Source of the DNA: Clostridiales bacterium
GTDB taxonomy: Bacteria; Bacillota; Clostridia; Christensenellales; Aristaeellaceae
Reading direction: 5' to 3'
Assembly: GCA_024695415.1 (NCBI GenBank)
Contig: JAILIE010000069.1
Coordinates: forward strand, 1 to 62,893
DNA length: 62,893 nucleotides
This document shows positions 11,856 through 26,890 of the stretch, one piece after another. Below the pieces are notes generated by a model. That model had not been told where the DNA came from and made no database searches. It saw only the letters and a program-made list of their open reading frames with translations. The translations under genes and the position numbers were made by a program. Within the stretch, counting starts at the first letter, position 1, and each line of letters begins with the position of its first letter.

Positions 11856-12947
11856 GTGGCAGAACAGCCCAAGTATTTGCTGGTGGCGGACATCCTGCGC
11901 CGGGAAATCGCCCGCGGCGTATTCCGGGACGGGCAGACGCTGATGACGGAGGAGGATCTCCGCCTTCGCTTCGGTGTGTCGCGTCAGACGATCCGGCAGG
12001 CGATTGCCCTGCTGGAGGACGACGGGCTGGTGGACCGGCGCCGCGGAAGCGGCACCTATGTGCGCCACGGGCCGCGCCGCCGCCAGGGAACCATCCACGT
12101 CGGCGTGGTGGCGACCTATATTACGGACTACATCTTCCCTTCCATCGTGCAGGGGATTGAATCGGTGCTGAACAACGCCGGGGCCGTCATGTCCCTGAGC
12201 GCCACCTATAACGACAGCCGGACGGAACGGAGCATCCTGGAGCGGATGCTGGACGGGCAGGTGGACGGCTTGATCATCGAAGGCACCCGGACCGCGAGCG
12301 AACCCCCGAACGCCGATCTTTTCCTGCGCCTGGCGGAGCGGAACATCCCGGTCCTGTTCATGAACGGGTATTATCCGGGCATCAGCCAGGTGCCCCATGT
12401 GGTGATGGACGACTACGCCGGCGGAAAAATGGCGGCGAGCATCGCGCTGGACCGCGGATACCGGCGGCCGGCGGGCATATTCAAGACGGACGACCTCCAG
12501 GGTGAGGAACGCCTGGCCGGGTTCCAGGACGAAATGGACGCCCGGGGAATCGACGTTCCGCCGGAGCGGCTGCTGCTGTTCGGCACCGAGGAGCGGATGA
12601 ATCTGTTCGATACGCCCGCGGGCGTGGATTTCATCAACATGCTGGTGCGCAAGGAAGCGGACTGCGTGATCGGCTACAATGACGTTTTCGCGGCGACGCT
12701 GATGGGCATCCTGCTGACAGCCGGAATGCACCTGCCGGAGGATATGGGCGTGATCGGCTTCGACAACGCCACCTTCTCACCGATGGTGCAGCCCCCGCTG
12801 ACTACCCTCGGCCATCCGAAGGAGAAGTTCGGCGCCATGGCGGCGGAGAAAATCCTGCGAATGATCGACGGCGAGAAGGAAAAGAGCGTCAGCATGCCCT
12901 GGATCCTGGCGGAACGGGAAAGCCTGCCCCGGATCATTCCGGAATGA
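11856..12947 (+). CDS. GntR-LacI hybrid sugar-responsive repressor (AraR-like)
   Basis: A 363-aa regulator. Residues 1-70 form a GntR-type winged helix (LRLRFGVSRQTIRQAIALLE, then RRRGSGTYV). The rest is a LacI/periplasmic-binding-type effector domain (HVGVVATYITDYIFPSIVQG at its start, ending VIGFDNATFSP). This domain order is that of AraR, the arabinose repressor. No sugar-use genes are adjacent, so the effector is unknown. GTG at 11856 is preferred over GTG at 11847 because GAGGAAGGG is then at a normal distance. It overlaps rlmH by four bases (ATGA). Confidence 0.85.
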   Translation: MAEQPKYLLVADILRREIARGVFRDGQTLMTEEDLRLRFGVSRQTIRQAIALLEDDGLVDRRRGSGTYVRHGPRRRQGTIHVGVVATYITDYIFPSIVQGIESVLNNAGAVMSLSATYNDSRTERSILERMLDGQVDGLIIEGTRTASEPPNADLFLRLAERNIPVLFMNGYYPGISQVPHVVMDDYAGGKMAASIALDRGYRRPAGIFKTDDLQGEERLAGFQDEMDARGIDVPPERLLLFGTEERMNLFDTPAGVDFINMLVRKEADCVIGYNDVFAATLMGILLTAGMHLPEDMGVIGFDNATFSPMVQPPLTTLGHPKEKFGAMAAEKILRMIDGEKEKSVSMPWILAERESLPRIIPE

Positions 12948-13426
12948 GCACCGCGGTTATATGCGTCGGCCGGATGAAGGAGAAGCCGTACCGCCAGATG
13001 GCGGACGAATACCTGAAACGGCTGACCCGGTACGGAAAGACGGAGGAGATTGAGATCCCCGACCTGCCGGAACCCGCGGGAGGAAGCTCCCCCGCGCTGG
13101 AGGAGCAGATCCGCCGCCGGGAGGGGGAAGGCATCCTGAAGGCCATCCGCCCGGGGGATCGGGTGATTGCCATGACTATTCCCGGAGCACGGATGGGATC
13201 GGAGGAACTGGCGGAGCACCTGGAAAAACTCCGCGCCGGCGGCGCCGGAAGGATCGTGTTCGTGATCGGCGGCAGCCTGGGACTGGGAAAGAACGTGCTG
13301 GAGCGGGCCGACGAGGAACTGTCCATGAGCCCGATGACCTTTCCGCACCAGCTGGCCCGCGTGATGCTGCTGGAGCAGCTGTACCGCGCGGAAAAGATCC
13401 TGGCCGGGGAACGATACCACAAATAA
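12944..13426 (+). CDS. rlmH: 23S rRNA pseudouridine-1915 N3-methyltransferase
   Basis: A 160-aa SPOUT methyltransferase that modifies position 1915 in helix 69 of 23S rRNA. The family hallmarks are clear: IVFVIGGSLGLG, then LSMSPMTFPHQLARVMLLEQ, and the C-terminal YHK. Length is the family norm (about 155-160). The start overlaps the stop of the AraR-like gene (ATGA). Downstream gaps of 30 to 40 bases suggest that the next three exported-protein genes may share the transcript. Confidence 0.95.
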   Translation: MSTAVICVGRMKEKPYRQMADEYLKRLTRYGKTEEIEIPDLPEPAGGSSPALEEQIRRREGEGILKAIRPGDRVIAMTIPGARMGSEELAEHLEKLRAGGAGRIVFVIGGSLGLGKNVLERADEELSMSPMTFPHQLARVMLLEQLYRAEKILAGERYHK

Positions 13427-13466
13427 CGGACCCGTGCGCGGTTCCGGAAGAAAGGCTGGAAGAACC

Positions 13467-14042
13467 ATGAGAAGCAGAACCCGGGCGCTGGCGGCGCTCC
13501 TCCTGGCCATGCTGCTGGTTCTGGCCGGCTGCGGGGCAAAGGAGAGCGCGGAACTGCCGGCGCGGACAGAGGTTGTCCGGGCGGCGGAAACCGCCGCGGA
13601 GACACCGCCGGAGGAAGTGCCGGCGGAAAAACCGACCGGGAAACCGACGGAGACGCCGACCGCCCCGCCGAAGGAGACGGAGAAACCCGGGCCGATCATC
13701 GATCCGCAGGAAATCGCGGACTACCTGTTCACCTACGGGAAGCTGCCGGACAACTTCATCACGAAGCAGGAAGCGCAGAACCTCGGGTGGGACAGCAGCC
13801 GGAATTACGTCAGCGACGTGGCGCCGGGCAAGAGTATCGGCGGGGACCGGTTCGGCAACTACGAGGGAAACCTGCCGAAGGTCAAGGGCCGGACCTATTA
13901 CGAGGCGGACTGCGGTTATACCAGAGGGAAGCGCGGGGCCGCGCGGATCGTTTATTCAAGCGACGGGCACGTGTGGTATACCGAGGACCACTACACCACG
14001 TTTACAGAACTGTTCCCATCGGGGCAGGATCCTTCGGAATAA
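13467..14042 (+). CDS. Barnase-like secreted ribonuclease, lipoprotein
   Basis: A 191-aa lipoprotein: signal peptide with lipobox LAGC (Cys22), a Pro/Glu/Thr-rich spacer (about 30-75), and a complete barnase-type guanyl-specific RNase domain (about 80-185). The domain matches barnase closely (LPDNFITKQEAQNLGW, DVAPGKSIGGDRFGN). The catalytic set is present: Glu146 in the EAD motif, Arg160, and His175 in DHYTTF. It should act outside the membrane, tethered to it. No barstar-like inhibitor gene is visible nearby, which would be tolerable for an exported enzyme. ATG at 13467 is preferred because it gives a proper signal peptide. First of three exported proteins in a row. Confidence 0.9.
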   Translation: MRSRTRALAALLLAMLLVLAGCGAKESAELPARTEVVRAAETAAETPPEEVPAEKPTGKPTETPTAPPKETEKPGPIIDPQEIADYLFTYGKLPDNFITKQEAQNLGWDSSRNYVSDVAPGKSIGGDRFGNYEGNLPKVKGRTYYEADCGYTRGKRGAARIVYSSDGHVWYTEDHYTTFTELFPSGQDPSE

Positions 14043-14075
14043 GCCGGGACAATCCTTTTGGGGAGGGATTCATCC

Positions 14076-16052
14076 ATGAAGAGAAACGGAAAGATCATCG
14101 CTATCGCGGCGGCGCTGAGCCTGTGCCTGCTGCTGACGGGATGCTATATCGCGCCGGACGACGTGAACAACAACGGCGGAAACACTACGGTGAACAACCT
14201 GCCGTTCCAGACGATGGCGCCGACCCCGACGGTTACGGTCACCCCGGATACCGTGGTGGTTGAAACCCAGAACGTATTCGGCACGCCGTCCGGGCAGACC
14301 GGCACGGCGGCGACGCCCACGCCCGCGTCCACATCCGGGACCGGCGGATGGAGCGACTGGGGATCCGCGGGTTCCCCGACCGGCTCCCCGACCGCGGTGC
14401 AGACCGGCGGCACGATCGTGTTTTCCGGCGAAACCGTCTCTCCCGGACCGGACGGGACGATTTCGGTGGTAACCGAAATGCCGGCGACGCCCACGCCCAC
14501 CCTCGCGGTCGTGACGCCGTCCCCGACGCCGCCGAGCCTGCAGCTGGGCTTTACGGGAAGCGAATCCGTCCGCGCCCTGCAGCGGCGGCTGAAGGAACTG
14601 GGATACTACAAGGGCAGCATCGACGGCGATTTCGGCACGAATACGGAAAAGGCCGTGAAGGAATTCCAGAAGGCGAACGGACTGTCCGCGGACGGAAAGG
14701 CCGGGGAAAAGACGCTGGCCAAGCTGAACTCCAAGAACGCGATCTCCTACAAGCAGGCGCACGCGACCCCGACCCCGAAGGCCACGGCGAAGGCGACCGC
14801 CAAAGCGACCGCCAAGACGACCCCGACCCCGAACCTGAGCAAGAACTACTACCTGACCGACGGTTCCAGCGGAAAGAAAGTGGAAACCCTGCAGCGCCGG
14901 CTGATCGAGCTGGGCTGGCTGGACGGAAAGGTCACCGGCACCTATGATTCCGCCACGGAGCAGGCGGTGCGCGCCTTCCAGCGGAAGACTTCCGGACTGT
15001 GGGAGGACGGGATCGCCGGGCCGGATACCCTGCGGGCGCTCTACTCGTCCAAAGCGGCGCGGACCAGCAAGGCGGTGGCCAGTTCCGGGGAAACCCTGGA
15101 GTTTGGCAGCGAGGGCAGCGCGGTGAAGAAGCTGCAGCAGAAGCTGAAGGACCTGGGCTACCTGAGCGGTTCCGTGGACGGCAAGTTCGGTGTGGCGACC
15201 CAGGCGGCGGTCATCGCCTTCCAGAAGAACAACAACCTGACGGCGGACGGCAAGGCCGGTACCGCCACGCTGAGCAAGCTGTATTCCGGAAACGCCAACA
15301 AGGCCAGCGGAAACGCCGCGAAGATCACCACCAATGAAAAGAACAGCTCCGGACGGGACACTTCCGGCATCGCTTCCACCGGATACGATACGCTGGAGGA
15401 CGGGTCCACGGGCAGCGCGGTGAAGAAGCTGCAGCAGAAGCTGAAGGACCTGGGTTATTACCACGGAAAGATCGACGGCTCCTTCGGCGAGGAAACCGAG
15501 GCCGCGGTCATGGCCTTCCAGCTGCAGAACAACCTGACGGTGGACGGCAAGGCCGGCCCCGCGACCCAGCGGGTGCTGTACGGTACGGGCGGCAAGAGCG
15601 CGGTCACCTATTCCGCCCTGCGGATGGGCGACACGGGAACCGCCGTACGGAACCTGCAGTATACCCTGTATGAGCTGGGATACTACGACGGATCGATCGA
15701 CGGCGATTACGGCCAGACCACGTCGGACGCCGTACGTGCCTTCCAGATCCAGAACAGCATTTCCCCGGTGGACGGGGTCGCCGGCAGCGTAACGCTCGGC
15801 AAGCTGTACTCTTCCGAGGCCAAGGCCGCCACGTCCGCCAATGTCCAATACGACACGGTACGCCCCGGAGACACGGGAGAGATCGTGGTAGAGATCCAGG
15901 ACTGCCTGGTCCAGATGGGCTATCTCGACAATATCAACGGCGTGTATGACGACGCGACCACCGCGGCCGTGAAGGCGTTCCAGAGCGCGAACGGACTGAC
16001 GGCGGACGGCGTGGCCGGGGCGAAGACCCTGGTCATCCTGTTCGGCTATTGA
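14076..16052 (+). CDS. Lipoprotein with six peptidoglycan-binding repeats
   Basis: A 658-aa lipoprotein: signal peptide with lipobox LLTGC (Cys23), a Thr/Pro/Gly-rich spacer to about 150, then six PG_binding_1 modules (about 155-218, 261-325, 342-405, 440-502, 512-578, 595-658). Each has the pattern LQxxLxxLGYYxGxIDG, FG.xTxxAVxxFQ and DGxAGxxTL. No catalytic domain is present, so it probably links the membrane to the cell wall. Modules 3 and 4 are nearly identical at the DNA level, pointing to recent duplication. GGGGAGGG precedes the ATG at 14076. It sits between the barnase-like and caspase-like genes with gaps of about 30 bases. Confidence 0.92.
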   Translation: MKRNGKIIAIAAALSLCLLLTGCYIAPDDVNNNGGNTTVNNLPFQTMAPTPTVTVTPDTVVVETQNVFGTPSGQTGTAATPTPASTSGTGGWSDWGSAGSPTGSPTAVQTGGTIVFSGETVSPGPDGTISVVTEMPATPTPTLAVVTPSPTPPSLQLGFTGSESVRALQRRLKELGYYKGSIDGDFGTNTEKAVKEFQKANGLSADGKAGEKTLAKLNSKNAISYKQAHATPTPKATAKATAKATAKTTPTPNLSKNYYLTDGSSGKKVETLQRRLIELGWLDGKVTGTYDSATEQAVRAFQRKTSGLWEDGIAGPDTLRALYSSKAARTSKAVASSGETLEFGSEGSAVKKLQQKLKDLGYLSGSVDGKFGVATQAAVIAFQKNNNLTADGKAGTATLSKLYSGNANKASGNAAKITTNEKNSSGRDTSGIASTGYDTLEDGSTGSAVKKLQQKLKDLGYYHGKIDGSFGEETEAAVMAFQLQNNLTVDGKAGPATQRVLYGTGGKSAVTYSALRMGDTGTAVRNLQYTLYELGYYDGSIDGDYGQTTSDAVRAFQIQNSISPVDGVAGSVTLGKLYSSEAKAATSANVQYDTVRPGDTGEIVVEIQDCLVQMGYLDNINGVYDDATTAAVKAFQSANGLTADGVAGAKTLVILFGY

Positions 16053-16084
16053 CAGGATCCGCCGGAGTATAAAGGAGAAACAGA

Positions 16085-17233
16085 TTGAAAGGACGGAGGC
16101 TGCTGCCCGCGGCAATCATGACCCTGGCGCTGGCAGTATGCCCGGCCGGACGGGGCGGAAGAGCGCCGGATGAAATCCGCGGCACCAACCGGTGCCTGGT
16201 GATCGGCTACGACCACTTCACCTCGATGCCCGACACGGCGCCGTGCTCCGCCAACAACGTGGAAATCATGGCGGCGCTTCTGTCGGACTATACGCCGGAA
16301 ACGGAAAGGGTGATCCGGCGGGTGGACGGACCGGGGACCGGCGAGGAGCTGGAAGAGCTGATCCGGGATACCTTCCGGAACGCCGGGGAAGCGGACACCT
16401 CCTACGTCTACCTGAGCACCCACGGTGTTGCCTGGGCGGAGGACGGCGCGGAGCGGATGGCTTTCCTCCTCTGCGACGGAACGGCGGAAACAGAGCTGGA
16501 ACCCGCGCGGCTGCGGGAGATGCTGGACGCTGTTCCCGGACGGAAGGTGCTGATCCTGGACGCGTGCCATTCCGGCGCTGCGCTGGCGGCCTTCGACGGT
16601 CCCGAATACCGCGTGATGGCATCGGGCCGCGCGGATGAGGACAGCTATTTCTGGATGTCCGGACCGGACCGGGATACCGGGACGGGATACTTCACCTCCG
16701 CGCTGGACGGCGCGCTGCGGGCCAGCCTCCGGGAGCAGATCGACCCGGACGGGGACGGACGCGTCACCATGGCGGAACTTCGGGCACGGACCGGTGAGAT
16801 TTACGGGGCATCCGATGCCCAATGGCTGACAGGCGGGGCGGACGACGCCCTGTTTTCCCTTCCGGAGGAACCGCAGTGCGAGGAACGGATCCGCGGCCTG
16901 ACCTTTGACGGCCTGACCCGGGAGGAGGATACGCTGGTGCTGTCCTTCCGGTTTTCCCTGGACGAGGCCACCCGGATGGAGTACCGCATCGTCACCCGGA
17001 AGGACGGGAAGTGGGATTTTGAGAACGCGTCGCGGCTGCCGGACCGGGAGAGGACCGGAACGGTCCGCGGGCTGCTTTCACCGGGGGACAAGACCCGGAA
17101 GATCCGGATTTCCGCAGACAGCCTCGGGGAGGAGGGCACGGTCCTGCTGCAGATTATTTCCCTGCGGGGTCTGCACGGCCAGGTGCCGGTGCTGGAAGCC
17201 AGCCGGCGCATCTCCGCGGACGGGGCAGAATAA
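16085..17233 (+). CDS. Secreted caspase-like (C14) protease with EF-hand loop
   Basis: A 382-aa exported protein. A signal peptide (1 to about 27) precedes a caspase-fold domain with the His/Cys dyad: His113 in YLSTHGVAW and Cys161 in LILDACHSG. Residues 220-231 (DPDGDGRVTMAE) form a complete 12-residue Ca2+ loop with acidic residues at positions 1, 3, 5 and 12. From about 265 to the end the fold looks beta-rich and unassigned. Bacterial caspase homologues cleave after Arg/Lys or Asp and several are Ca2+-activated; applying that here is inference. TTG start, seven bases after AAAGGAG. Last of the three exported-protein genes. Confidence 0.85.
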   Translation: MKGRRLLPAAIMTLALAVCPAGRGGRAPDEIRGTNRCLVIGYDHFTSMPDTAPCSANNVEIMAALLSDYTPETERVIRRVDGPGTGEELEELIRDTFRNAGEADTSYVYLSTHGVAWAEDGAERMAFLLCDGTAETELEPARLREMLDAVPGRKVLILDACHSGAALAAFDGPEYRVMASGRADEDSYFWMSGPDRDTGTGYFTSALDGALRASLREQIDPDGDGRVTMAELRARTGEIYGASDAQWLTGGADDALFSLPEEPQCEERIRGLTFDGLTREEDTLVLSFRFSLDEATRMEYRIVTRKDGKWDFENASRLPDRERTGTVRGLLSPGDKTRKIRISADSLGEEGTVLLQIISLRGLHGQVPVLEASRRISADGAE

Positions 17234-17235
17234 GC

Positions 17236-17262
17236 TTGACGGAGACGGGGATCAGGTATATC
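17236..17262 (+). promoter_or_regulatory. Possible mrp promoter
   Basis: TTGACG (17236-17241) followed after 15 bases by TATATC (17257-17262), or after 17 bases by TATCTT. Spacing is ambiguous. Confidence 0.45.
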
Positions 17263-17284
17263 TTTGTGTTTTGAGGTGATTGAA

Positions 17285-18106
17285 ATGTCTGAATGCACGC
17301 ACGACTGCGCTACCTGCGGGGCGGACTGCGCGTCCCGGAAGCCGGAGAGCCTGCTGGAACCGCAGAATCCCATGAGCGATATCAAAAAAGTGATCGCGGT
17401 GATGTCCGGCAAGGGCGGCGTCGGGAAAAGCCTGGTAACCGGCCTGCTGGCGACGCTGACACAGCGCAACGGGAAAAAGGCCGCGATCCTGGACGCGGAT
17501 ATTACCGGGCCGTCCATTCCGAAAATGTTCGGGATCCATGACAAGGCCATGGGATGCGAGGACGGGATCCTTCCCGCCCAGAGCCGCACGGGCGTCAAAA
17601 TGATGAGCCTGAACCTGCTGCTGGAAAAGGATACGGATCCGGTGGTATGGCGCGGAAGCCTGATTTCCGGAACGGTCAAACAGTTCTGGACCGACGTGGT
17701 CTGGGGCGACGTGGACTATATGTTCGTGGATATGCCCCCGGGAACCGGGGACGTTCCGCTGACGGTGTTCCAGAGCCTGCCGGTGGACGGGATCCTGATC
17801 GTGACCAGTCCGCAGGAACTGGTCAGCATGATCGTGGAAAAGGCCGTCAACATGGCGAAGATGATGAATATCCCGGTGCTCGGTATCGTGGAGAACATGA
17901 GCTGGATCGCCTGCCCTGACTGCGGAAAGAAGATCTACCCCTTCGGGGAAAGCCGCACGGCGCAGGTGGCGCTGGAACACGGTATCCCGCTGCTGGCGCA
18001 GCTTCCGCTGGATCCGGCCCTGGCCCGGGCCTGCGATACCGGCGTCATCGAACTGTTTAACGAGGACTGGATGAATCCGGTCACCGACCGGATTGAGGCG
18101 CTGTAA
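17285..18106 (+). CDS. mrp: Mrp/NBP35-type Fe-S cluster carrier ATPase
   Basis: A 273-aa cytosolic P-loop protein of the Mrp/ApbC/NBP35 group that assembles and transfers Fe-S clusters. The deviant Walker A is SGKGGVGKS (41-49). An N-terminal Cys set (C4, C8, C11, C15) is of the NBP35 kind and a second CPDC motif near 210 is expected to bind the shared cluster at the dimer interface. The ATG at 17285 follows GAGGTGATTGAA. The stop overlaps the next start (TAATG). Confidence 0.9.
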   Translation: MSECTHDCATCGADCASRKPESLLEPQNPMSDIKKVIAVMSGKGGVGKSLVTGLLATLTQRNGKKAAILDADITGPSIPKMFGIHDKAMGCEDGILPAQSRTGVKMMSLNLLLEKDTDPVVWRGSLISGTVKQFWTDVVWGDVDYMFVDMPPGTGDVPLTVFQSLPVDGILIVTSPQELVSMIVEKAVNMAKMMNIPVLGIVENMSWIACPDCGKKIYPFGESRTAQVALEHGIPLLAQLPLDPALARACDTGVIELFNEDWMNPVTDRIEAL

Positions 18107-23300: not shown

Positions 23301-25583
23301 ATGAAGCAGGTGAAGAAAGTGACACGCCGGATGCTGCTTCTGGCGGCGGCGGTGGTCCTGTGCCTGGGCGCCGTGCTGCCGGCGGTGACCGGAGCGGCCG
23401 CGGAAGAGGAAACCATGGAGATCGTCGGGAGCTATCCCTATACGACGGTCACCCGGGTGAAAGTCAACCTGCGCTCGTCGCGCTCGGTCCGTTCGGACCT
23501 GCTGCGAAAGATTCCCGAAGGCGCGGAGATCACCGTTCACGGCGTAAAGGGCTCGTGGGCGGAAGTGACGTACGGCAAATATTCCGGCTTTGTCAAGACG
23601 GACTATATCGTGCTGAAAAAGGTCCAGAAGATCAAGGTGACCCCGACGCCCACCCCGGTACCCACCCTGACCCCCGAGGAGAACGCGGGCGGGTATGTGA
23701 TCCTGCGCAGGGGAAGCAGCGGCAGTGAAGTGAAAGCCCTGCAGGAAGCGCTGATTGAACTGGGTTTCCTGAAAGGCAAGGCGGACGGGGAATTCGGCGC
23801 GGCGACGGAAACCGCGGTCATCTCCTTCCAGCGGGCGAACAATTATCCGGACACCGGCCTGATGGACGCGAATGTCCAGGCGTTCCTGTATTCCGGCTCC
23901 CCGAAGAACGCTTCCGGAACGGCGACGAAGATCAAGACGCTGAGCCCCGCGGAGGGCGTGACCATCCGCAAGGGAAACCAGGGGGAACTGGTCGGGGAAC
24001 TGCAGATCCGGCTGAAGGACCTGGGATATTATACCGGCAGCATCAACTACACGTATGACAACGACACCATCGCCGCGGTCAAGGCGTTCCAGAAGAAAAA
24101 CGGACTGAAGACGGACGGAATCGCCGGCCCCGAAACGCAGAAGGCGATCCTTTCGAACAGCGCGACCGACGCGAACAGCCCGACCGCTACCGCGACGCCG
24201 AAACCCACCGCCACACCGACCGCCGCGCCGACCTATACCATTCCCACGTCCACCGTGAAATCCGGTTCGGAAGGCACGGAGGCAAAGACGGTCCAGCGCC
24301 GGCTGAAGGAGCTCGGATACTACAAGGGAAGCATTGACGGACGGTTCGGCAGGGGAAGCGTCGACGCCCTGAAGGAGTTCCAGGAAGCGAACGGCCTGAA
24401 AGCGGACGGCGTGGCCGGACAGTCCACCTACAAGGTGCTGTTCGGAGACAGCGCCATCAACGCGGAGGAAGCGCGCGCCACCCCGATTCCGGTGCATACC
24501 GAAGCCCCCGAAACGGCGGAGCCGGCCGCGACCGCGGAGCCGGCGGCAACCGCCGTGACAAAAACCTCATGGACTACGCTGCGCAAGGGCGACAGCGGCA
24601 GCGAAGTTACCCAGCTGCAGGAGAGACTGATCCAGCTCGGCTACCTGGCCGGCACGGCGGACGGCCAGTACGGCAGCGGCACGGTGGACGCCGTGAAGGC
24701 CTTCCAGAAAGCGAACAACCTGAAGACGGACGGCGTAGCCGGTACGGAAACCCAGAAGCTGATGTTCGGCGCAACCGCGAAGGCGGCCGCTGTGAAGGCG
24801 ACCGTCGCGCCGACCGCGACCCCCAAAGCCACCGCGACGCCCAGGGCGACCGCCACCCCCAAGCCGTCCGAAACGGCTTCCGCGTCAATTTTACGCCGGG
24901 GGGACAAGGGAAGCGAAGTGCGCGAACTGCAGCGGAAGCTGATCCGGCTGGGCTATCTGAGCGGCAGCGCGGACGGCGTGTACGGCAAGCTCACCACCGC
25001 GGCGGTCAAGGCGTTCCAGAAGGCCAACAAGCTGACCCAGGACGGGGTGGCCGGGGCCCAGACGCAGGCGAAGCTGAACGGGACTTCCGTGTCCGTCTCC
25101 GCCACCGCCACGCCGGCCGCTTCCAGCCAGACCGGAACTGTCACCGGGAAACCCAGCGCGTCCAAGGTGATCTACGCCAACTGGTATACGACGGTGAAGG
25201 CGGTCTGCCGGCAGTATCCCTACGCGACCGTGTATGATTATTCCACCGGGATTTCCTGGCAGGTGCATATTTTCTCCCTCGGCGCCCACGCGGACTTCGA
25301 GCCGCTGACGGCCAACGACACGGCGAAGATGCTGCGCGCATTCGGCGGAAACACATGGAATCCGAAGGCGGTATGGGTGATCTTCGCGGACGGCAGCGTT
25401 TATATGGCGTCCACGCATTCCAACCCGCACGGGACCCAGCATAACAAGGACAACAATTTTGACGGCCACGCCTGCATCCACTTCCCGCGGACCCAGGAGC
25501 AGGTGGAAGCCATCGGACCGTACGCGACCAGCCACCAGACGATGATCGACAAGGGCTGGGCGGCGACGCAGGCGATGAAGTAA
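23301..25583 (+). CDS. Secreted SH3 and peptidoglycan-binding protein with unassigned C-terminal domain
   Basis: A 760-aa exported protein: signal peptide (cleavage near 34), an SH3b domain (about 41-107), five PG_binding_1 modules (about 132-197, 219-283, 317-380, 424-490, 530-593) joined by Thr/Pro/Ala linkers, and a distinct C-terminal domain (about 620-760). The latter contains VHIFSLGAHADFEPL, STHSNPHGTQH and DGHACIHF (His723, Cys725, His727). That last motif recalls the HGC(I/V)R site of L,D-transpeptidases, but the fold is not clearly YkuD. GGAGGGAA precedes the ATG. An L,D-transpeptidase gene follows. Confidence 0.88.
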   Translation: MKQVKKVTRRMLLLAAAVVLCLGAVLPAVTGAAAEEETMEIVGSYPYTTVTRVKVNLRSSRSVRSDLLRKIPEGAEITVHGVKGSWAEVTYGKYSGFVKTDYIVLKKVQKIKVTPTPTPVPTLTPEENAGGYVILRRGSSGSEVKALQEALIELGFLKGKADGEFGAATETAVISFQRANNYPDTGLMDANVQAFLYSGSPKNASGTATKIKTLSPAEGVTIRKGNQGELVGELQIRLKDLGYYTGSINYTYDNDTIAAVKAFQKKNGLKTDGIAGPETQKAILSNSATDANSPTATATPKPTATPTAAPTYTIPTSTVKSGSEGTEAKTVQRRLKELGYYKGSIDGRFGRGSVDALKEFQEANGLKADGVAGQSTYKVLFGDSAINAEEARATPIPVHTEAPETAEPAATAEPAATAVTKTSWTTLRKGDSGSEVTQLQERLIQLGYLAGTADGQYGSGTVDAVKAFQKANNLKTDGVAGTETQKLMFGATAKAAAVKATVAPTATPKATATPRATATPKPSETASASILRRGDKGSEVRELQRKLIRLGYLSGSADGVYGKLTTAAVKAFQKANKLTQDGVAGAQTQAKLNGTSVSVSATATPAASSQTGTVTGKPSASKVIYANWYTTVKAVCRQYPYATVYDYSTGISWQVHIFSLGAHADFEPLTANDTAKMLRAFGGNTWNPKAVWVIFADGSVYMASTHSNPHGTQHNKDNNFDGHACIHFPRTQEQVEAIGPYATSHQTMIDKGWAATQAMK

Positions 25584-25669
25584 TAACAAGAGGGCTTTCC
25601 AATCGGATCCAATTCAGGCGCCACCGGCGCCCGCGCCCCTTCGGGACAACAGGTTTGACAATAGGTTTT

Positions 25670-26890
25670 ATGATGAGAGCATGTAAAAAGAAATGGTCAG
25701 GTTTTCTGGCAGCCTTGCTGGCAGGGCTGCTTTTCCTTTCCTGCGGGATCTGCGAAGAGATCGAGGAGGTGGAGCTGGAAAGCGGGCTGTCCACGCTCGG
25801 ATGGGCGGAGGATATCGTCTTTCACAGCGCCAATGAAAACAGCCCCGTGAAATGCGACCACGACCTGTGCTTCTGGAACATGAAGATGGGCTGGATGGAC
25901 GAGTCGGAGATCTGGCAGGTGCTGACCCAGCCGGTGACCGTGCTGGACGGCAGCCAGCGGCAGCAGTACAAGGTCCGGGCGCTGCCCGACGCGGACTGCG
26001 AAGACTATGTCGGCTGCGTGACCTACGCGAGCCAGGGCGTGCACGTGCTGGAACGCGGGGAGGAATGGAGCCTGATCGAGGCCTATTCCTCCAGTGTGGA
26101 AGGATCGCCGGTGAAGGTCTACGCCACACTGTTCCAGGGATATGTGGAGACCGCGCTGCTGAAGGAGGTGCCGGTGGACCAGACCTATGGCCTGGTGATC
26201 GACAAGCAGACGCAGCGGATGTATGTTTTCAAAGAGGGGAAACTGCTGACCGTCATGCTGGTTTCCACGGGGTTCTATAACCCCAAAAAGAAAAACCCGT
26301 GGAACGAGACGCCGGCGGGAGAATTCCTGGCCATCAGCTGGACCGGGGATTTCCCGCTGAAGGACGACGACGGCAACGTCACGATGATCTGCAAGCGCGC
26401 CATCCGGATCAACGACGGGATCCTCCTCCACGAGGTTCCGATGATCCCGAAGACGGACAGCGAGGGCAACACCACCTGGAGCTACGACCGCTGCGAACGC
26501 TACCTGGGCGAGAAGGCGAGCCACGGCTGCATCCGGATCCAGCGGCGGAAGACGCCGGAGGGGATCAACGAGGAATGGCTCTGGAAAAACCTGAGCGACG
26601 GAACGAAGAAGGGAAAGGATTACACCAAGGTCATCATCTGGGACGACGCCGGGCGGGAGCTCGGATACCCGGACGACAGCCTCAACCTGTACTACAACGC
26701 CAAGCGCGACAAGTCGTATTACCACTCCAGCCCGGAGTGCGAGCGGATCAAAGGATCCTCCAAAACCGTCGCGTTTACCTGGGGCGAGCTGGAGGATAAA
26801 ACCTACCGGAACCTTTCACCCTGTCCGAACTGCGCGCCGCAGCTGCGGAAATCCGGCATCGACGAACTGAACGAGAAGAATAACCGGTAA
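25670..26890 (+). CDS. L,D-transpeptidase (YkuD) with C-terminal Cys/His motif
   Basis: A 406-aa exported enzyme. A signal sequence (1 to about 27) precedes an SH3-like region and then the YkuD catalytic domain (about 165-325), beginning TYGLVIDKQTQRMYVF. The active site SHGCIR is at 284-289 with Cys287 as nucleophile. Such enzymes form 3-3 peptidoglycan cross-links or attach wall proteins. The C-terminus adds YYHSSPECERI and LSPCPNC, which look like a small metal-binding module. Start could be ATG at 25670 or 25673; the ribosome site (ATAGG) is weak. It follows the peptidoglycan-binding protein gene and ends at a bidirectional terminator. Confidence 0.9.
   Translation: MMRACKKKWSGFLAALLAGLLFLSCGICEEIEEVELESGLSTLGWAEDIVFHSANENSPVKCDHDLCFWNMKMGWMDESEIWQVLTQPVTVLDGSQRQQYKVRALPDADCEDYVGCVTYASQGVHVLERGEEWSLIEAYSSSVEGSPVKVYATLFQGYVETALLKEVPVDQTYGLVIDKQTQRMYVFKEGKLLTVMLVSTGFYNPKKKNPWNETPAGEFLAISWTGDFPLKDDDGNVTMICKRAIRINDGILLHEVPMIPKTDSEGNTTWSYDRCERYLGEKASHGCIRIQRRKTPEGINEEWLWKNLSDGTKKGKDYTKVIIWDDAGRELGYPDDSLNLYYNAKRDKSYYHSSPECERIKGSSKTVAFTWGELEDKTYRNLSPCPNCAPQLRKSGIDELNEKNNR

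Follow-up and report, generated by a model that had tools for sequence, protein, structure and literature searches.

A row of three genes for predicted surface proteins

The window analysed here is an entire contig of 62,893 nucleotides (JAILIE010000069.1) from the assembly GCA_024695415.1 of a gut-dwelling Clostridiales bacterium in the family Aristaeellaceae, whose source genome comprises 2.16 Mb in 143 contigs and is 80% complete. Our subject is an island at positions 13467-17233, where three plus-strand genes without internal stops encode a barnase-type ribonuclease (RNase), a peptidoglycan-binding lipoprotein (hereafter the wall binder) and a caspase-fold protease. With slightly better than even confidence, we propose that a surface-held, barstar-protected scavenging RNase is paired here with a wall-binding lipoprotein, and that the caspase is an accessory protein of the wall zone encoded in the same housekeeping row. 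The island and its two conserved neighbours are as follows.

12944-13426, plus strand: rlmH (SPOUT methyltransferase), conserved upstream neighbour (PF02590, E 4.9e-52)
13467-14042, plus strand: barnase-type RNase, lipoprotein of 191 amino acids, domain at about residues 82-182 (PF00545, solved barnases, active-site residues, lipobox LAGC)
14076-16052, plus strand: lipoprotein of 658 amino acids with six PG_binding_1 modules (PF01471 in six stretches, E 1.9e-118; lipobox LTGC)
16085-17233, plus strand: caspase-fold protease of 382 amino acids with caspase domain, EF-hand-type loop and C-terminal beta domain (PF00656, H113/C161, AlphaFold2, Foldseek)
16742-16777, plus strand: codons of the EF-hand-type loop D220-E231 (alignment column counts; positions calculated with the TTG at 16085 as start codon)
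17288-18106, plus strand: mrp/NUBPL-type P-loop ATPase, conserved downstream neighbour (PF10609, E 1e-88)

The first-pass annotation of this DNA had placed the three genes 30-40 bases apart, and the gaps of 33 bases between barnase and wall binder and 32 bases between wall binder and caspase, all on one strand, bear this out; rlmH ends 40 bases before barnase, and mrp begins 54 bases after the caspase. Scans of the sequence found no terminator-like site on the plus strand from 13427 to 17264 and placed promoter-like sites at 17236, before mrp, and within the wall-binder gene, with counts close to chance level for both kinds of site (three promoter-like sites where chance alone would give 1.7 +/- 1.3, and eight terminator-like sites where it would give 6.5 +/- 2.7). 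Judging from the N-termini, which we read here and in relatives, all three products are probably exported or surface proteins, as had been supposed. Among the anti-phage models of PADLOC, none matched the barnase or the wall binder, and the caspase matched only the generic ‘caspase’ model, at 28.2 bits against a model with no stated cut-off.

The RNase and the wall binder are the conserved core

In a set of 45 genomes of the genus, 37 carry the barnase and 24 a full-length caspase, and gene order was read around every one of the 37 barnase genes. The wall binder lies next to the barnase in each of them, and rlmH lies upstream of barnase in 36, the contig of the remaining genome (L251) ending first. 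The caspase occupies the slot between wall binder and mrp in 23 genomes, and the row of the 24th (L114) is rearranged. Where the barnase is present and the caspase is not (13 genomes), the wall binder leads directly to mrp in 11, and the contig ends in two (L247 and L252). On a genus tree of 34 genomes built from five housekeeping proteins, from which the short contigs L247, L251 and L252 were omitted, one clade has the caspase in all of its 23 rows and the other in 1 of 11. The 77-locus set, for its part, omitted L227, L242 and L243.

Because the first two genes stay together and the protease comes and goes among close relatives, the trio gives the impression of separate surface proteins rather than of a single machine for killing. 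We conclude that the RNase and the wall binder form the conserved core and that the caspase is accessory; it would be gained or lost at its slot as a unit, and the RNase would not need it. At L114/L199 the caspase is inverted and faces the wall binder, with mrp displaced, which reflects either a rearrangement or an assembly fault.

A probably surface-held RNase with a distant barstar

The window RNase matches PF00545 at E 1.3e-17 (64.6 bits against a curated cut-off of 24), and it is the single match to this profile in the source genome. Among solved structures it comes closest to barnase and binase, with E of about 1e-35 to 1e-30 and an alignment over residues 82-182. If the active-site residues of barnase are, as we take them to be, numbered K27, E73, R83, R87 and H102, then equivalents of all five are kept in the window protein and in 37 of 37 aligned sequences of the genus. 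We predict a guanyl-type RNase of the N1/T1 family.

The earlier description of a tethered RNase with an intact active site stands as regards the five residues and the lipobox of the window protein, but the lipid tether does not extend to the genus as a whole. By our own sequence pattern for lipoboxes, the barnase has one in 19 of the 20 genomes with a short form of the caspase (the 20th reads LNGC), in none of the four with a long form and in none of the ten that are caspase-free. The predicted lipid tether is thus a feature of one clade only. In non-lipidated barnases (L244-L251, L116 and L117), a strongly basic linker stretch recurs, for example KSRKKKNTPTP. We considered this stretch as the obvious site for cutting by the caspase after Arg or Lys, but it does not track the presence of the protease: it is seen in caspase-free genomes and is missing or weak in several caspase-bearing ones.

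Profile matches to barstar, the barnase inhibitor, occur in 44 of the 45 genus genomes. Both proteins were found in 36 genomes, and in all 36 the two genes lie either on separate contigs or 250 kb or more from each other. The barstar of the source genome is an open reading frame (ORF) of 82 amino acids without a signal peptide, on another contig than the barnase, and it is for this copy that the cytosolic nature of barstar was read.

An intact barnase accompanied by a nearly universal barstar might also suggest antagonism, in which the surface-held RNase would poison nearby cells, on contact or after being shed, and barstar would be the immunity protein. Tandem double barnases, which we found in exported proteins at 5 of 36 barnase loci outside the genus (L076, L080, L090, L094 and L134), are in keeping with such a role. 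However, the barnase lacks both a delivery domain and a repeat region, no immunity gene adjoins it, its inhibitor is remote from it in every genome that has both, and a cytosolic inhibitor would be expected equally for any secreted barnase. The active site is also without polymorphism in the 37 sequences. We regard antagonism as unlikely. The more specific identification of a polymorphic toxin system was rejected, given an RNase that is a lipoprotein of only 191 amino acids and a barstar located on another contig.

A wall binder without an enzyme domain

The description of the second protein as six modules with no enzyme domain was accurate: PG_binding_1 accounts for the six stretches listed above, and no catalytic Pfam domain was detected at E 0.01. 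Such modules occupy 26 stretches in 12 open frames of the source genome. The protein also exceeds the cut-off of TIGR02869 (319.9 against 236.5), but we rejected its identification as the spore cortex-lytic enzyme SleB, since the score is driven solely by the six peptidoglycan-binding repeats; the best stretch covers positions 6-71 of the 201 in the profile, and no lytic Pfam domain is present. This score could mislead automatic annotation into calling the protein a spore cortex-lytic enzyme.

A probably exported caspase of the likely metacaspase or paracaspase type

The third protein had been described as having a caspase fold with intact His and Cys and a Ca2+ loop, and each of these elements was recovered. 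Peptidase_C14 (PF00656) matches at E 4.8e-8 (33.4 bits against a curated cut-off of 21.4), and translation would begin at a TTG that an AAGGAG-like site precedes. The 78 aligned caspase sequences are all identical at H113 and C161, and also at D159, two residues before the Cys, and at E185. The EF-hand-type loop is nearly as constant, with D220 in 77 of 78, D or N at position 222 in 78, G225 in 75 and E231 in 78.

An AlphaFold2 model of the caspase, made with the 78 sequences, has a mean pLDDT of 92.3. Its top Foldseek match is the caspase-Ig3 unit of MALT1 (E 5.6e-12, TM 0.42, rmsd 17.8; the two domains do not superpose together), followed by plant metacaspases, caspases and legumain. A phmmer search against solved structures gave no match at 0.001. 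The name EACC1-associated caspase (EACC1 as in the part of PMC8195603 drawn upon) was tried and set aside, NF047832 reaching 60.3 bits against a cut-off of 140.

According to the excerpted text of PMC4357240, MALT1 holds the P1 Arg through the acidic S1 residues D365, D462 and E500, located on alpha1, L4 and L5. In the window protein D159 and E185 would answer to two of these, and at the place of D365, where MALT1 has its third acidic residue, there appears to be Asn58 (78 of 78); these equivalents were placed by sequence and not by superposition. The protease is predicted to prefer a basic P1 residue, probably Arg or Lys, and the loop suggests that it may respond to Ca2+.

The window caspase has no canonical lipobox and also lacks the C-terminal FlgD_ig-like domain of its longer relatives, a domain whose Pfam match is weak and below the cut-off. 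Testing on the housekeeping tree whether the short caspases make up a single clade gave p 0.047, but for a group that was named after the tree had been seen; the caspase’s own tree joins them. Among the proteins of the row, the caspase diverges fastest, with a median identity to the window protein of 50%, as compared with 66% for the wall binder, 69% for barnase, 76% for RlmH and 84% for Mrp. Named relatives that carry the caspase are mostly metagenome bins (Clostridia, Clostridiales and Christensenellaceae), many of them from ruminant guts. A relative of the caspase (37% identity over 86%) is also encoded at 1538-2584 on the minus strand of MT839904.1, a record of 6.5 kb that is labelled ‘Bacteriophage sp.’, has no annotation and comes from human faeces; it is perhaps a bacterial contig.

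Distribution beyond the genus

Gene order in relatives had been proposed as a test of whether the trio belongs together, and the order is conserved inside the genus but not outside it. Across 150 genomes of the family, PF00545 matches occur in 103 and orthologue-level caspases (E up to 1e-50 in a profile search, a limit between orthologues and paralogues that was chosen after the search results) in 96. The barnase was found in 0 of 63 caspase loci outside the genus and in none of 13 further loci, and the caspase in 0 of 17 barnase loci likewise outside it, many of these stretches being short (3 to 15 kb).

Outside the genus, too, the barnase appears to remain at the surface. At the 36 barnase loci examined there, the 35 proteins whose N-terminus is in view all have, by eye, a hydrophobic N-terminal segment for export or anchoring (one begins at a contig edge); some of these segments look like uncleaved helices and others like lipoboxes. 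One other genus (g6) has three genomes (L082/L125, L085 and L126) in which the barnase stands behind a fused peptidoglycan-binding domain, and 1 of the 36 carries a stretch resembling SH3, whose Pfam match (E 0.0012) falls short of the cut-off. Because lipid, helix, peptidoglycan-binding and SH3-like segments occur in different loci, surface retention of barnase seems to recur by different means across the family. The earlier suggestion that the RNase is linked to the wall or surface gains support both from this fusion and from the constant adjacency to the wall binder within the genus.

The caspase has wall-related neighbours of its own. A same-strand ORF with a peptidoglycan-binding domain lies within 250 bases of it in 12 of 60 loci outside the genus, as compared with 4 peptidoglycan-binding ORFs elsewhere in the 727 kb of these loci. 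Nine of these loci have a CHAP and PG_binding_1 protein upstream of the caspase (checked with Pfam at L204), and three have a large SH3 and PG_binding_1 protein downstream (checked with Pfam at L200). Such neighbours point to the wall zone as the likely workplace of the protease.

Several results weigh against the explanation proposed at the outset. The 12 wall-gene neighbourhoods represent only two contexts, and so few independent events. No separate peptidoglycan-binding gene was seen beside the barnase in the 36 loci outside the genus, most of them with flanks of 1.5 kb. Barnase and caspase also co-occur positively in the 150 family genomes (both in 73, barnase only in 30, caspase only in 23 and neither in 24; p 0.011). 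This association fades in genomes at least 90% complete (53, 13, 13 and 8; p 0.14) and over 50 genera (20, 11, 10 and 9; p 0.55), and therefore incompleteness and kinship may explain it. Finally, barnase lipidation is paired with the short caspase across the genus tree, as a functional link would also bring about. Of the signs of such a link that we found, this pairing is the main one, and it may reflect one or two shared events.

Weighing the alternatives

Given this distribution, a serious rival is that the three genes are pure passengers, unrelated surface genes held together only by a conserved housekeeping row in a young genus. The genes rlmH, mrp, proS and plsX likewise keep their order in the genus, the trio is conserved in the genus only, and co-occurrence at the level of genera is lacking. 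Nevertheless, a barnase fused to a peptidoglycan-binding domain, a caspase that adjoins wall-binding genes in two further contexts, and a barnase-wall binder pair that is retained without exception would not be expected of passengers alone. We consider this possibility rather less likely than our own proposal, but it deserves to be kept in mind.

The first-pass annotation had suggested, among other possibilities, a protease that activates or releases the RNase. In such a release module, the exported caspase would free or activate the RNase by cutting a linker, either in the barnase or in the wall binder, for example on a Ca2+ signal. The shared direction and short gaps of the trio are consistent with this idea, as are the full retention of the caspase in its own clade, the occurrence of lipid-tethered barnase with the short caspase and with neither other state, and the role of caspase-like domains as releasing peptidases inside polymorphic toxins that is described in the portion of PMC3482391 drawn upon. 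However, those toxins carry the peptidase in the same chain, and the window’s peptidase is a protein of its own. Of the 13 caspase-free genomes that nonetheless retain the pair, 11 have an empty slot, none of the stretches examined outside the genus places the caspase next to barnase, the two show no association among genera, and the basic linkers do not follow the protease. The proposal thus fared poorly, and we view a release module as quite unlikely. For similar reasons, a dedicated three-part killing module was rejected, its caspase being dispensable in the genus and both unlinked and unassociated outside it.

A narrower version is a Ca2+-triggered switch, in which an exported paracaspase-like protease would act in trans, either on the lipid-tethered barnase or on the wall binder beside it, and the RNase would thereby be shed or unmasked when needed. 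The mark of such a switch would be the joint appearance of barnase lipidation and a shortened caspase in one clade. Even so, we judge it very unlikely. If true, the control of a surface RNase by an exported bacterial paracaspase would be an arrangement of a new kind.

Programmed lysis, with the caspase executing death via wall proteins and the RNase clearing the released RNA, appears highly improbable. It can draw on the proximity of a caspase-fold protease to wall-binding genes and on the metacaspases joined to wall-lytic domains that are on record in the consulted part of PMC3501461, but the trio has no lytic enzyme and the caspase is missing from much of the genus.

A proposed scavenging RNase and its relation to known systems

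Our preferred explanation, that of a surface-held scavenging RNase with an accessory caspase, would operate as follows. The barnase would be secreted, kept at the surface and cut RNA outside the membrane, while the barstar encoded at a distance would shield the cell during its synthesis. Next to the RNase, the six-module lipoprotein would tie the membrane to peptidoglycan. The most likely role of the RNase is the scavenging of nucleotides and phosphate, because related Bacillus RNases are induced by phosphate starvation, as stated in the available extract of PMC5021464. The caspase would be a Ca2+-responsive protease of the metacaspase or paracaspase type that probably cuts wall-binding or other surface proteins after Arg or Lys.

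Barnase is known as a freely secreted enzyme. With barnase, binase and balifase, the secreted N1/T1 RNases of Bacillus that are matched by a cytosolic barstar, the proteins described here share the domain, the active site, the predicted export and a barstar gene that lies away from the RNase gene. In contrast to them, the present RNases are apparently retained at the surface by lipid, helix, peptidoglycan-binding or SH3-like segments, and the window RNase is encoded in the rlmH-mrp row beside a wall-binding lipoprotein. That a whole family appears to hold barnase at the surface by several devices suggests that holding the RNase matters, for example in keeping the released nucleotides.

The neighbouring protease belongs to a caspase-fold family, probably exported, that is widespread among gut Clostridia. 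It has the caspase fold, the His/Cys dyad and the Asp two residues before the Cys in common with metacaspases or orthocaspases and paracaspases (C14B, clan CD; terms as in the section of PMC5756287 used here), but it is predicted to be exported and has an EF-hand-type loop after the domain, to which relatives add the weak FlgD_ig-like domain. Those prokaryotic metacaspases that carry peptidoglycan-binding domains (11 of the 671 sequences in the excerpt of PMC3501461) likewise link a caspase-fold protease to the wall, there in one chain and here through a neighbouring gene. The caspase-processed polymorphic toxins, as far as the extract of PMC3482391 describes them, share the parts list of barnase-like RNase, caspase-like peptidase and peptidoglycan binding, but the window trio has no large trafficking chain, internal peptidase or adjacent immunity gene. 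Neither caspase-released toxins nor peptidoglycan-linked metacaspases would therefore be new alone, both being on record in these partial texts. In the portions of the literature available to us, we recognised no description of the trio, of a surface-anchored barnase or of a secreted bacterial metacaspase.

Elsewhere in the window, positions 23301-25583 encode a second exported-type protein with an SH3 domain and five peptidoglycan-binding modules, and this gene is followed at 25655-26890 by one for a YkuD L,D-transpeptidase.

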